DNA from: Niveispirillum irakense DSM 11586
Lineage (GTDB): Bacteria > Pseudomonadota > Alphaproteobacteria > Azospirillales > Azospirillaceae
Assembly: GCF_000429645.1 (NCBI RefSeq)
Contig: NZ_AUCG01000016.1
Span: 496,001-560,000 of the forward strand
Length of the DNA stretch: 64,000 bases
Direction of reading: 5' to 3'
Part shown: piece after piece, positions 38,850 to 43,186 of the stretch
Numbering within the stretch: position 1 is the first letter of the stretch
How the letters are laid out: each line of letters begins with the position of its first letter
Translations under genes and position numbers: made by a program
The notes under the pieces: generated by a model
The model's database searches: none
Told to the model about the DNA's origin: nothing
Seen by the model: only the letters and a program-made list of their open reading frames with translations

Positions 38850-39515
38850 TCAATCAAGGGCCGCCCGCAGGGCTGCGGCCGTCCCCAGCGGTGCCAGCGT
38901 CGCCGCCCCCGCCAGAAGCCCGCCCAGTAACAGCAGATGCGGCCGGGCACTATGTCCCATCAGGGCCGAATCGATGGCAGCGGCGGCAAAAATCAGGGCC
39001 GGCACATACAAAGGCATGACTAGCAGCGGCAATAATACCCCACCCCGCCGCGCCCCCAGGGTCAGCGCCGACCCCACCCCACCGATCAGGGACAGGAGGG
39101 GGGTGGTGAGGGCGAGCGTGAGCAGCAGGATGGGAAAACCATCCGCCGGCAGATTGAGGAACAGGGCCAGCAACGGCGCGGCCAGGATCAGCGGCAGGCC
39201 GGTGACCAGCCAATGGGCCACCAGCTTGGCGGCGGCCACCGCCTCCAGCCCCAGGGGGGACAGGGACAGCAGTTCCAGGCTGCCATCCTCGTAATCGGCC
39301 TGGAACAGCCGGTCCAGCGACAGAAGCGAGGCCAGAAGCGCCGCGACCAGGATTACGCCCGGCGCGATACGCGCCAGCACATTGGGTTCCGGCCCGATGC
39401 CGAAGGGGAACATCACAACGCACAGCACGAAGAACAGCACGGCCATGGCGGCATCCGCCCCCTGGCGCAGGGCCAGCCGCAATTCCCGGCGCAGCAGTCG
39501 CAGCCAGCGGGTCAT
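38850..39515 (-). CDS. ccmB: Heme exporter membrane protein CcmB
   Basis: This 221-residue protein has six membrane helices. Family-like segments are LRRELRLALRQGADAAMAVLFFVLCVVMFPFGIGPEP and DYEDGSLELLSLSPLGLEAVAAAKLVAHW. With CcmA it forms the ABC module of cytochrome c maturation that provides heme to CcmC/CcmE. Its ATG overlaps the ccmA stop by four bases. ccmC is not seen downstream; the next gene downstream is the M23 peptidase gene. Confidence 0.94.
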   Translation of the reverse strand: MTRWLRLLRRELRLALRQGADAAMAVLFFVLCVVMFPFGIGPEPNVLARIAPGVILVAALLASLLSLDRLFQADYEDGSLELLSLSPLGLEAVAAAKLVAHWLVTGLPLILAAPLLALFLNLPADGFPILLLTLALTTPLLSLIGGVGSALTLGARRGGVLLPLLVMPLYVPALIFAAAAIDSALMGHSARPHLLLLGGLLAGAATLAPLGTAAALRAALD

Positions 39516-40312
39516 GGTGTCACATCCCCGGCGCCGGGGGCGCCTTCATCCTCGTCCAGCCCGTCGGTTTCATCCTCATCCGCCACCACGCTGAAGCGGG
39601 ACACGTCCAGCGTCTGCGCCCCCGGCAGATCCAGCGCGCTGTGGGTGGACAGCACGACCATGCCGCCCTCCGCCCGGTGGCGGGCGATCAGCAGCGCCAG
39701 ACGGGCCACCGAGTCGCGATCCAGCGCCGTCGCCGGTTCATCCAGCAGCCAGAGGGGCGCCGCCACCGCCGGCACAAGCGCCAGACGCGCCAGATTGACC
39801 CGTTTTTTCTGTCCGGCGGAAAGATACCGGCCGGGCAGATCGGCGACATGGGACAGGTCCACCGCCGCCAGGGCCCCGCGCGCGCGCGGTTCCGGATCGG
39901 GCAATCCGTCCAACCCGGCCCAGACGGACAGGTTCTCCACCGCCGTCAGCGCCGGTTTGACCGCATCCTGATGGCCGACATAGCGCAGCCGGATGCGGTG
40001 GGCATCAGGATCATCGGCAAGCGGGACGCCGTCCCAGGACAGCAGGCCGGAAAAGGGGCGCGAGAGACCGGCAAGCAGGCGCAGCAGGCTGGATTTACCG
40101 CTGCCATTATGGCCGACCAGCACCAGCGCCCCGCCGGGCGGCAGATGGAAATGCAAACCGGCAAACACCAGACGCGGCCCGCGCAGACAGACAAGATCGC
40201 GCGCAGCAAGGCCGGCGCTGGCCGGGGCAGGTGCTGCGGATATGCCGGAACCGTCGGGAAACAAGATGGAAGCCCACTCCGAAAGGCAGAAAATCGTCAG
40301 GCCTGCCGCCAC
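39512..40312 (-). CDS. ccmA: Heme exporter ATP-binding protein CcmA
   Basis: Walker A is GHNGSGKSSLLRLLAG, the signature LSAGQKKRVNLARL, and Walker B LWLLDEPATALD. The C-terminal acidic tail (ADEDETDGLDEDEGAPG) is longer than in most CcmA. The start is uncertain: no ATG is in frame. GTG 40312 gives 266 residues, while a TTG at 40264 (FPDGSGISAAP) is closer to the domain and has GGAG about 12 bases upstream. It powers the CcmAB module. Confidence 0.92.
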   Translation of the reverse strand: MAAGLTIFCLSEWASILFPDGSGISAAPAPASAGLAARDLVCLRGPRLVFAGLHFHLPPGGALVLVGHNGSGKSSLLRLLAGLSRPFSGLLSWDGVPLADDPDAHRIRLRYVGHQDAVKPALTAVENLSVWAGLDGLPDPEPRARGALAAVDLSHVADLPGRYLSAGQKKRVNLARLALVPAVAAPLWLLDEPATALDRDSVARLALLIARHRAEGGMVVLSTHSALDLPGAQTLDVSRFSVVADEDETDGLDEDEGAPGAGDVTP

Positions 40313-40437: not shown

Positions 40438-40693
40438 AAAATTGTACCGATCCGGGGCGCGGACCGGCTGACAGAGGACGATCAGAGGATCGGGCTCCAC
40501 AAGGACCATCAGTGCCGGGGCAAGGGTGTCTCAATCCGCACCCGGCGATCCAAACCCGATTCTGTCACGCCCGTGATTGATAATTTGGGCCTGGAAAGTG
40601 GCAAAAATTTGATTTGATCCGGGCGCGTGGCAGATGCGCAAAGTTTCATCAAACGGATACAAAAAATCTCTTTCACGGATGGGGCTTCGGCCC

Positions 40694-41080
40694 TATATAG
40701 CGCTCATTCGCAGCGCACGTGCCTATGGCCCCCACACCTGTCCCCCCGGCATTTTCCGCCCCGGACAGAGCCGTCGACCCGGTGGGGTTATGCAACGACG
40801 TAACGCGTATCCTCGTCCGTCCCTTAAGCAAGGCGGCGAATTGGAGGCTACGATGGTACTTGTTGTTGTTGGTGGGCCCGCCGTGCCTGCCCTTCTCCGA
40901 CTTTTCTCGCAGCTCCCCGCCTATGGGAGCGATGCTGCTGGACGCATGTCCAGTATCTGACCCGCTTGGGCCGGCTGCTGCGTCGGCACGCCTGAGCGGA
41001 ACCGGGCCCTGAGGGGGCCCGGCATATTACTATTGCCTTCACCTGACATCGCTGACCTTGTTGCCTCGGAGTCTTTCGCA
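40694..41080 (+). ncRNA. speF-type leader RNA of ornithine decarboxylase
   Basis: About 375 bases of gene-free, structured sequence lie between a -10-like TATATA (40694-40699) and the decarboxylase start. The speF motif (Rfam speF) is known as a long conserved leader upstream of ornithine decarboxylase genes in alphaproteobacteria; position, length and gene context fit, but I could not run a covariance search. Visible parts are a leader ORF at 40853 and a GC hairpin CCGGGCCC/GGGCCCGG at 41002-41022 with no T run. It probably controls decarboxylase expression in response to polyamines or ornithine. Confidence 0.6.
40853..40960 (+). CDS. Leader peptide within the ornithine decarboxylase leader
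   Basis: A 35-codon ORF starts at ATG 40853 with GGAGG six bases upstream, a better site than that of the decarboxylase itself. It begins MVLVVVGGPAVPALLRLF and ends GRMSSI. It stops at 40960, 120 bases before the decarboxylase. Run-on codons for Val and the Pro residues could stall ribosomes. E. coli speF is controlled by an unrelated 34-residue peptide, SpeFL, that traps ribosomes with ornithine; a similar principle here is inference only. Confidence 0.55.
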   Translation: MVLVVVGGPAVPALLRLFSQLPAYGSDAAGRMSSI

Positions 41081-42208
41081 ATGACCGAGAAGATCGCCCG
41101 TTTTTTTGCCGAACAGACGCCCGCCACGCCCTGCCTGGTGGTCGATCTCGACGTCGTTGCTGAAAACTATGCCAAGCTGAACGGCGCCATGCCCGATGCC
41201 CGCATTTTCTATGCGGTGAAGGCCAATCCCGCGCCGGAAATCCTGCGCCTGCTGGTTCAGGCCGGTTCCTGCTTCGACACCGCATCGGTGCCGGAAATCG
41301 AATATTGCCTGGAAGCCGGTGCCACCACCGACCGGATCAGCTTCGGCAACACGATCAAGAAGGCCGCTGACATCCGCACGGCCCACAAGCTGGGTGTGGA
41401 TCTGTTCGCCTTCGACAGCATCGAAGAGCTGGAAAAGATCGCCGAGAACGCCCCCGGCGCGCGTGTCTTCTGCCGTATCCTGACCTCCGGTGAAGGCGCC
41501 GACTGGCCGCTGTCCCGCAAGTTCGGCTGCGAGCCCGCCATGGCCAAGGAACTGCTGATCAAGGCCGCCAGCATGAATGTGGTGCCCTATGGCGTGTCCT
41601 TCCATGTCGGCAGCCAGCAGCGCGACCTGACCCAGTGGGATATCGCGCTGGCGACCTGCGGCGACATTTTCCGCACCTGCGAGGAAAAGGGCGTTCTGCT
41701 GAAGATGGTCAATATGGGCGGCGGCTTCCCCACCCGTTACCTGAAGGATGTCCCGACCAGCCAGGCCTATGGCGAGGCGATCAACGAGAGCCTGCGCCGC
41801 CATTTCGGCAACCGCATCCCGGAAACCATCATCGAGCCGGGCCGCGGCATGGTGGGCAATGCCGGCATCATCCAGTCGGAAGTGGTGCTGATCTCCCGCA
41901 AGTCGGCCAATGATGACAAGCGCTGGGTCTATCTGGATATCGGCAAGTTCGGCGGTCTGGCTGAAACCATGGACGAAGCCATCCAATACCCGATCCAGAC
42001 CGAGCGTGACGGCCCGGCTGAACCGGTGATCCTGGCCGGCCCGACCTGCGACAGCGCCGATGTGCTGTATGAAAAGGCTGATTACCGCCTGCCCAATTCC
42101 CTGCGCATCGGTGACAAGGTGACGATCATGGCGACGGGCGCCTATACGACCACCTATTCCGCCGTCAATTTCAACGGGTTCTCCCCGCTGAAGGCCTATT
42201 ACATCTGA
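41081..42208 (+). CDS. speF: Ornithine/lysine decarboxylase, fold III
   Basis: This 375-residue eukaryote-like PLP decarboxylase has the PLP lysine in IFYAVKANPAPEIL, MVNMGGGFPTRY, IIEPGRGMVGNAG and the catalytic Cys region GPTCDSADVLYEKADY. It makes putrescine from ornithine (some members also accept lysine or diaminopimelate). ATG 41081 follows CGGAG; the frame is open to 41033. It is monocistronic with a strong terminator, and the long leader suggests post-transcriptional control. Symbol follows usage for this RNA family. Confidence 0.93.
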   Translation: MTEKIARFFAEQTPATPCLVVDLDVVAENYAKLNGAMPDARIFYAVKANPAPEILRLLVQAGSCFDTASVPEIEYCLEAGATTDRISFGNTIKKAADIRTAHKLGVDLFAFDSIEELEKIAENAPGARVFCRILTSGEGADWPLSRKFGCEPAMAKELLIKAASMNVVPYGVSFHVGSQQRDLTQWDIALATCGDIFRTCEEKGVLLKMVNMGGGFPTRYLKDVPTSQAYGEAINESLRRHFGNRIPETIIEPGRGMVGNAGIIQSEVVLISRKSANDDKRWVYLDIGKFGGLAETMDEAIQYPIQTERDGPAEPVILAGPTCDSADVLYEKADYRLPNSLRIGDKVTIMATGAYTTTYSAVNFNGFSPLKAYYI

Positions 42209-42440: not shown

Positions 42441-42487
42441 ATTCAGTCGCGGACCCTAAACCATAAATGCCTCATAAGGAGTGGTTC

Positions 42488-43186
42488 ATGCGTTTCTCCC
42501 GGTTGCTCGCCTCCACGGCCATCGCTGGCCTGATGCTCGCCGGCGCCTCCGCCGCTCAGGCCGAATCGCCGTTCTCTTTCTCCGGCACGGCCGCCATCAC
42601 CTCGGATTATGTCTTCCGCGGCTACAGCCAGACCGGTGAAGACCCTGCCTTCCAGGCCGGCCTGACCGCCAGCCATGAAAGCGGCTTCTTCGCCGGCGTC
42701 TGGGGTTCCAACGTCGATTTCGGCACCGGCAGCGACGCCGATGTGGAAGTGGACCTGTTCGCCGGTTACACCAACACCGTCAACGACCTGACCTATACGG
42801 TCACGGCGCTCTACTACACCTATCCCGGTGCCTCCAGCGATTTGGAGTATGATTATTTCGAAGCCGGTCTGGATCTGGTCTATTCCATCGGCGATGTCTC
42901 GATTTCCGGTAAGGTCTACTACTCGCCGAAATTCTTCGGCACCGCCGGCGGCGACGCCTGGTACCTGTCGCCGGGCTTCAGCTACGCCCTGACCGACATG
43001 ATCACCATCAATTACGCTGTCGGCTTCAACGAGCTGGAAAATGGCGCCGACTACAAGGACTGGAATGCCGGCGTGGCATTGAAATTCGAGCCGTTTGTTG
43101 TCGACCTGAAATATTACGATACCGACGTGTCGGGCGTGAAGGAAGCCGATTCGCGCTTCGTCGCTTCCCTGACCTACGCGTTCTGA
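42488..43186 (+). CDS. TorF family putative porin
   Basis: This 232-residue outer-membrane protein has a signal peptide (LLASTAIAGLMLAGASAAQAE). Its family opening is FSFSGTAAITSDYVFRGYSQTGEDPAFQAGL, and repeated beta-strand sequence ends in SLTYAF. AAGGAG lies seven bases before ATG 42488. TorF-type porins often accompany ammonium-uptake genes, which would fit a sigma-54 promoter; no amt/glnK gene is in the window. Specific substrate unknown. Confidence 0.9.
   Translation: MRFSRLLASTAIAGLMLAGASAAQAESPFSFSGTAAITSDYVFRGYSQTGEDPAFQAGLTASHESGFFAGVWGSNVDFGTGSDADVEVDLFAGYTNTVNDLTYTVTALYYTYPGASSDLEYDYFEAGLDLVYSIGDVSISGKVYYSPKFFGTAGGDAWYLSPGFSYALTDMITINYAVGFNELENGADYKDWNAGVALKFEPFVVDLKYYDTDVSGVKEADSRFVASLTYAF

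Follow-up and report, generated by a model that had tools for sequence, protein, structure and literature searches.

A conserved leader open reading frame upstream of an alphaproteobacterial ornithine decarboxylase gene and its possible role in translation-based control

Background

Does the short open reading frame (upstream ORF, uORF) in the leader of an ornithine decarboxylase gene (odc) of Niveispirillum irakense DSM 11586 have a function, and if so, does it act through its peptide, through the ribosome that reads it or only as part of an RNA structure? The gene, whose product makes the polyamine precursor putrescine, lies in a stretch of 64,000 nucleotides (NCBI RefSeq assembly GCF_000429645.1, contig NZ_AUCG01000016.1, positions 496,001 to 560,000 of the forward strand), which is referred to here as the window. 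The speF leader RNA of alphaproteobacteria has been on record since 2005, with no ligand (Corbino et al. 2005, PMC1273637), and its function was still called unclear in 2020 (PMC7717549). The main text of the 2005 report contains the terms 'open reading frame' and 'uORF' 0 times and 'leader peptide' once, for another gene. The SpeFL leader peptide, encoded ahead of enterobacterial speF, senses ornithine (PMC8429421). If its leaders contain a conserved ORF that bears a signature at the codon level, this leader class would gain a concrete, testable mechanism, and such an ORF would represent an independent counterpart to SpeFL.

Methods

The class survey comprised 289 alphaproteobacterial genomes, drawn evenly, and an odc-like gene was detected in 96 of these with an E cut-off of 1e-80; out of 103 odc places 12 were left out, and 87 upstream regions were read (the L253 region being only 151 bases long). 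Loci of families f66 and f93 with no recognisable 5' domain were omitted (L286, L292, L306, L315, L318 and L319). Two models were used: R1, representing the start region of the uORF in the window's family, and R2, a covariance model generated from 37 alphaproteobacterial odc leaders chosen by hand, with the window's family and RF00518-type leaders excluded. Leaders in which the uORF is separate from odc numbered 134 (80 from the family and 54 others); past the uORF start, each of them was scanned in every frame for the pattern W-C-N-AGTAT. For the peptide test the duplicate L316 was omitted, L207 and L211 were unparsed, and uORFs of fewer than 20 codons (L251) were kept out of the shuffle test.

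Results and discussion

The odc locus

Sequence checks agree with the initial annotation of the window on the 35-codon ORF with its GGAGG, the gap of 120 nt between the uORF stop codon (TGA, 40958-40960) and the odc ATG, and the GC hairpin that lies in this gap (Table 1). The ribosome signal of odc itself, CGGAG at 41067-41071, is 9 nt from the ATG at 41081. Its predicted product gave a lysine/ornithine decarboxylase as the top PDB match (4e-59), the best diaminopimelate decarboxylase scoring 4.6e-26, and by sequence it is an ornithine/lysine decarboxylase-like enzyme; the gene downstream of the leader is of the COG0019 type.

Table 1. Features of the odc leader, with positions in the window
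Feature	Position	Strand	Remarks
Structured 5' domain of the odc leader and uORF start	40705-40864	+	Covariance model R2 match
Conserved block CACGTGCC of the 5' domain	40716-40723	+	Common to ar45/speF-type leaders
Conserved block GCAACGACG of the 5' domain	40792-40800	+	Shows complementarity, though no covariation, with uORF codons 4-6
Possible hairpin	40811-40847	+	GGAGG, the uORF Shine-Dalgarno, could be paired by CCTC (40811-40814); by eye in the window
uORF Shine-Dalgarno GGAGG	40843-40847	+	5 nt to ATG; present in 80/80 family leaders
uORF	40853-40960	+	35 codons; leader peptide MVLVVVGGPAVPALLRLFSQLPAYGSDAAGRMSSI
Hairpin over uORF codons 7-13	40871-40891	+	Arms GGTGGGC (40871-40877) and GCCTGCC (40885-40891); by eye
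End motif TCC AGT ATC (S-S-I)	40949-40957	+	Adjoins the stop codon
Hairpin 1 base past the uORF stop	40962-40999	+	Arms CCGCTTGGGC (40962-40971) and GCCTGAGCGG (40990-40999)
Second GC hairpin, CCGGGCCC-TGAGG-GGGCCCGG	41002-41022	+	No T run downstream
odc, ornithine decarboxylase-like enzyme	41081-42208	+	375 aa

The arms of the hairpin next to the uORF stop were read by eye, and the same locus (L021) was folded computationally. At the place of the possible hairpin that includes the Shine-Dalgarno sequence the stem is CCUUUUUGG/CCGAGAGGG in other lineages. The entire leader folds only moderately better than its shuffles (z -1.68), and a simple scan of 40500-41150 revealed neither an intrinsic terminator nor a sigma-70 promoter. 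Over 8 bases, two of the pairs being G-U, GCAACGAC at 40792-40799 is complementary to uORF codons 4-6 (40862-40869); both stretches vary too little for a covariation test. One fold placed the uORF Shine-Dalgarno region in a pairing with the odc ribosome site; judged by eye, the two stretches are complementary in some genera and not in Azospirillum or Skermanella, and the pairing is therefore not put forward here. Short DNA matches to the hairpin region elsewhere in the genus are, by eye, probably due to chance. The plasmid records searched gave no match. The upstream neighbours (38850-40312, opposite strand) we take, from the look of the ORF list, to be a CcmA/CcmB-type transporter pair, and the downstream neighbour (42467-43186) is presumably, by the same look, a secreted, outer-membrane-like protein.

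Relation of the leader to known RNA families

The initial annotation had placed the ORF inside an ornithine decarboxylase leader, which holds, and had linked this leader with the catalogued speF RNA, which could not be confirmed: the RF00518 model gave no match in 40550-41150 at E up to 10, nor in the own genome at E up to 0.001 (a search in which 14 control genomes were equally without a match). The ar45 model (RF02347) likewise had no match in 40550-41150, and neither of the two models matched the window at the Rfam cut-off. No other relevant RNA family came up at the site in the Rfam searches.

Model R2, built from leaders of other families, finds the window leader with 43.7 bits (E 1.4e-7 over 172,673 bases), and on 10 kb with filters off the E-value is 8e-9, the next best site scoring 8.4 bits. 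All 20 family loci given to the search matched along with the window at E 4.2e-6 or better, and the leader is present in 39/39 family genomes searched at E up to 0.001. This search covered 37 sources in all, 36 of which gave a match at E up to 1. Of the 87 class-level loci R2 picked up 36 with an E-value no higher than 0.01, including 21 training members. RF00518-type loci were found with lower scores: of 11 such loci (four being RF00518 by the Rfam model and the rest by resemblance, with L051 and L200 representing the same leader) seven matched at E 4.9e-5 to 8.2e-4, three (L220, L054 and L052) at about 0.1, and L245 gave no match. By this comparison the window leader is a member of a wider class to which RF00518-type leaders are related. 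Many, not all, of the 87 upstream regions are laid out alike: CACGTGCC ... GCAACGACG is often followed by GCGTCCTTTTTGG, after which come a hairpin, CCGAGAGGGAGG or a similar stretch, and the ATG.

The alphaproteobacterial genes that directly follow the RF00518 speF leader are, as for the window leader, ornithine decarboxylase genes of the COG0019 type, but the RF00518-type leaders examined have no ATG uORF at the homologous place. A UUG start in these leaders was considered by eye and dropped, as the frames close early in some of them.

With ar45 the 5' domain of the window leader shares the core CACGTGCC ... GCAACGACG, and the window leader differs from many other leaders in having no T run after this core. 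An ar45 match is present directly before the RF00518 match, ahead of odc, in 4/4 RF00518 loci (the back-to-back pairs span L051 1408-1654, L052 1501-1780, L053 1386-1628 and L054 1413-1623), which makes ar45 and RF00518 look like successive segments of the same leader; the leader ORF also suggests that they are two pieces of a single leader. For Bartonella, ar45 and the speF leader have been reported to be separate transcripts (PMC7717549). Perhaps ar45 is a prematurely ended product of the leader.

Conservation of the uORF in the family and beyond

Leader DNA is present in 11/11 genomes of the genus (split over two contigs in G009), and the odc protein in 80 of the 82 family genomes at the threshold used; our data suggest that Azospirillum, Nitrospirillum, Skermanella and Arenibaculum are among the genera of this family. 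The initial annotation had held that absence of a conserved ORF from related leaders would speak against its proposal, and one is found throughout: all 80 family odc leaders carry GGAGG and ATG at the homologous place, followed by a uORF of 28 to 56 codons that closes before odc, although many of the leaders counted here and below are close relatives and the counts are therefore not independent events. A random ORF at the G+C content of the window would be about 44 codons long (hand estimate); the length of the uORF alone is not remarkable, and the evidence lies in its conservation, its frame and its end motif. On this comparison, the ORF in the window is no accident.

Over the block that runs from GCAACGACG into the codons following the start, the leaders fall into 41 distinct versions; 43 columns of this block are invariant and column identity averages 83%, with one leader (L087) lacking the exact GCAACGACG. 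Within Azospirillum the hairpin over codons 7-12, which is the same helix as that in the window, is paired in 161/161 cells (23 distinct sequences) and shows slight covariation, with one compensatory change and a covariation score that is reached by 12/500 shuffles. The hairpin at the uORF end contains two pairs with compensatory changes; among 31 Azospirillum sequences, these occur in 4 for one pair and in 10 for the other. Outside the family, R1 matched seven genomes in two other families (12/385 class genomes in total), and in all seven the match lies before odc with the start kept.

For 14 loci in 13 genomes, all of other families, the frame from the uORF start reads into odc without a stop (L210, L216, L255, L264 and L317 together with nine f93 loci, L303-L305, L307-L310, L312 and L313; L216 and L305 belong to one genome). 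These read-through loci tie the uORF start to odc, and they suggest that the basic job of the RNA domain is to control initiation at that start. The fused frames would give an N-terminally extended enzyme. At another locus, L209, the uORF stop and the odc start overlap as ATGA, a layout typical of translational coupling.

The uORF end, its AGT codon and the adjoining hairpin

What the uORFs keep is their start region, their reading frame and their end, TCN/ACC-AGT-ATN ([S/T]-S-[I/M]), which adjoins a hairpin. The pattern W-C-N-AGTAT occurs once each in 100 of the 134 separate-uORF leaders, and in 100/100 of these it is in frame 0; it is absent from the other 34. The distance between the ATG and the motif varies, with 9 distinct values in the family and 13 outside, and the distance from the motif to odc falls into all three classes modulo 3 (48/32/20). 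Ahead of the uORFs we found 0 matches in 61,112 nt, and the pattern itself is no rarity, with 4 matches in the 64-kb window against 2.4 expected. When looser motifs are admitted (AGTAT, or else TGTATG or AGTACG), 71/71 family leaders having one keep it in the start-codon frame, at 13 distances, and it is still missing in 9/80, including all five of genus g13 (Skermanella); both the looser motifs and the fixed pattern, which was the one searched in all frames, were devised after inspecting the sequences.

At the peptide level, [ST]S[IM] is present among the last 12 residues in 62/80 family uORFs (shuffled mean 0.64, maximum 4) and in 38/53 other uORFs (shuffled mean 0.47, maximum 4), where approximately 30 of the 38 come from f66, represented by its best 30 loci of 58 genomes with odc, and where genome G146 is contained twice (L224 and L301). 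The 100 leaders with the nucleotide pattern are the same 100 that have [ST]S[IM], so that these are two views of one feature, and it was found in six families (f1, f43, f44, f66, f93 and f145).

The second serine codon of the end motif is AGT in 100/100 leaders, the window's own locus (L021) among them. An invariant rare codon of this kind is unusual: in the odc genes examined AGT accounts for 21 of 1,520 serine codons and AGC for 501/1,520. Given that AGC is a common synonym, the invariant AGT argues for a signal in the codon or the mRNA, beyond the residue itself. Moreover, in 70/80 distinct segments (again including L021) the 60 nt that follow AGTAT are better folded than their dinucleotide shuffles (p at most 0.05), compared with 18/80 for the 60 nt before it. 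By comparison of these leaders, the conserved uORF end points to an undescribed translation-based control of odc.

Coding signal

The synonymous excess that the initial annotation had proposed as a sign of coding fails to appear over the ORF in the most thoroughly sampled genus of the family, Azospirillum: by block, pN/pS ranges between 0.79 and 2.41 with no excess in the body, the first codons have a lower ratio in another frame than in the true one, and after codon 9 the three codon positions vary equally (55, 49 and 50; 45 uORFs). In the window's own genus pN/pS over codons 2-9 is 0.40 (7 distinct sequences), and it is 1.00 and 0.89 for the f66 g78 uORFs, which mostly end P-S-S-[I/M]-G. That the frame is kept while most residues drift indicates that within the family translation to the end matters more than the body of the peptide.

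In two other families the picture at the C-terminus is clear. Ten leaders of f66 and f93 share IGRKNPLSS[M/I/L] or a close variant, and over this IGRKNPLSSM block pS is 0.579 and pN 0.073 (pN/pS 0.126), with pS and pN of 0.037 and 0.234 in the +1 and 0.000 and 0.231 in the +2 control frames. The C-terminal residues of the uORF in these two families are thus, as judged from substitution patterns, under clear protein-level selection; two f122 leaders have FGRENPLSSQ. Overall, we take coding to be supported by frame conservation and the end motif, with synonymous excess confined to the C-terminal block of ten related leaders.

A candidate mechanism and its alternatives

The reading that we consider probable is that the uORF is translated and gates odc expression through the position at which a ribosome pauses beside the hairpin at its end. 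The element would be a cis-acting leader of odc, in which uORF initiation would be governed by a structured RNA domain at the 5' side. On reaching the rare serine codon AGU within the terminal S-S-I, next to the hairpin, a ribosome reading the uORF would pause, and its position and dwell time would set the amount of odc mRNA that is made or translated, the hairpin being held open or allowed to form, and Rho possibly being kept off the transcript. The signal would presumably be ornithine or a polyamine. A C-over-G stretch, as expected of a Rho site, is clear before odc in 72/80 family leaders, and the effect on odc could therefore run through Rho; since the stretch is weak in the window and present in only 6/53 others, Rho is kept only as a possibility.

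It may be that the peptide is itself the sensor, i.e. that the nascent chain, acting with ornithine or a polyamine, halts the ribosome at the uORF end and that the stall permits odc expression. This idea, which we rate as somewhat unlikely, is largely a special case of the preferred reading (the probabilities assigned to the different readings do not sum to one). It is consistent with the gene context, with the conserved end that adjoins a hairpin, with the C-terminal block selected at the protein level in f66 and f93, and with SpeFL, which stalls likewise in gammaproteobacteria (PMC8429421). The window's family, however, keeps only two to three end residues, a small number for an arrest peptide, and an AGT that never varies points to an mRNA or decoding step rather than to the peptide alone. 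In addition, the A. tumefaciens speF RNA alone, without ribosomes, bound neither ornithine, putrescine nor spermidine (PMC1273637), a result that counts against this idea but would be compatible with a ribosome-bound site.

Alternatively, any translation of the leader might keep Rho off or unfold downstream RNA, with peptide and codon irrelevant and the end motif an RNA element near the hairpin. Coupling or protection of this plain kind would fit the lack of amino-acid constraint in the middle of the Azospirillum uORF, a motif that, where present, is always in frame, the C-rich, G-poor stretch of the 72 family leaders and the ATGA overlap in one lineage; in Salmonella, translation of orf34 interferes with Rho termination and helps to unfold the RNA at the speF ribosome site (PMC6386406). 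It leaves unexplained why the uORF ends in S-S-[I/M], why the codon is AGT in every leader with the motif and why pN/pS is so low over IGRKNPLSSM, and we regard it as unlikely.

A purely RNA-based switch, in which the conserved stretch around the start codon of the uORF serves as RNA structure and a high G+C content leaves the ORF open by chance, appears very improbable. It could draw on the complementarity of GTTGTTGTC to the conserved GCAACGAC, on the pairing that keeps the codons 7-12 hairpin in Azospirillum and on random ORFs being, by the hand estimate, about as long; but the end motif is in frame in 100/100 leaders at many distances while its gap to odc is out of register, related leaders show protein-level selection, and in other lineages the frame reads into odc. 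Least credible of all is programmed frameshifting at the slow AGU codon by the hairpin, as in antizyme, that joins uORF and odc: a rare codon followed by structure would suit it, and a fungal antizyme shifts frame depending on nascent peptide and polyamine (PMC4505036), but with an AGTAT-to-odc distance that takes all values modulo 3 no single shift joins both frames across the relatives.

Returning to a ribosome that pauses at the uORF end, we put forward, tentatively, a broader version: alphaproteobacteria may have evolved a ribosome-based polyamine/ornithine sensor of their own, a widespread odc leader in which the RNA domain gates the uORF, an AGU-specific pause at the S-S-I/M end next to the hairpin decides on odc expression, and ar45 is the prematurely ended first part.

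Comparison with known leader peptides

Enterobacterial speF is preceded by a leader ORF of 34 codons (SpeFL / ORF34), compared with 35 codons in the window, and by analogy the window uORF probably also acts through the ribosome position on the leader. The comparison is one of function and not of descent. In line with the initial annotation, which had called SpeFL unrelated, we detected no relation: the SpeFL core HIRRT*HIMM (PMC6386406) is absent from the window peptide, which ends S-S-I with the AGT codon, the RNA leaders differ, and Pfam, including PF10940 (DUF2618), has no family for the window peptide nor for six of seven related peptides, the seventh having one below-cut-off match to ribosomal L32 (E 0.06). 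As in TnaC (PMC8429421) and other arresting leader peptides, the ORF precedes a metabolic gene and the residues near its end matter, but the window motif includes an invariant codon in addition to residues. Pfam and NCBIfam scans revealed no sequence relation to arresting leader peptides.

Among the literature matches listed there was no account of an alphaproteobacterial odc leader peptide, which does not prove that none exists. The main text of a S. meliloti ribosome-profiling paper (PMC10117765) does not mention ornithine or speF, and the text of PMC4117421 that was examined contains no mention of ornithine.

A second leader of the same class

The own genome contains a second R2 match, which scores better (87.6 bits; L321, C1:109100-109250), before a second ODC-like decarboxylase gene, the product of which is 33% identical to the first and has a lysine/ornithine decarboxylase as top PDB match (4.5e-51); its leader has a uORF of 12 codons. 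Two R2 leader matches are present in 34/39 family genomes searched, and all 30 loci of the second type that were fetched lie before a relative of the second decarboxylase gene. The uORFs of these leaders comprise 11 to 17 codons in 23 parsed loci (11 codons in 16/23, e.g. MLALHGRALRR) and 11 to 31 codons in six further loci, while that of L347 has, by eye, the same 12 codons as L345. W-C-N-AGTAT was found in 0/23 of the parsed loci; the uORF of L343 ends M-S-I, encoded by AGT ATC before the TGA at the second and third of these residues.
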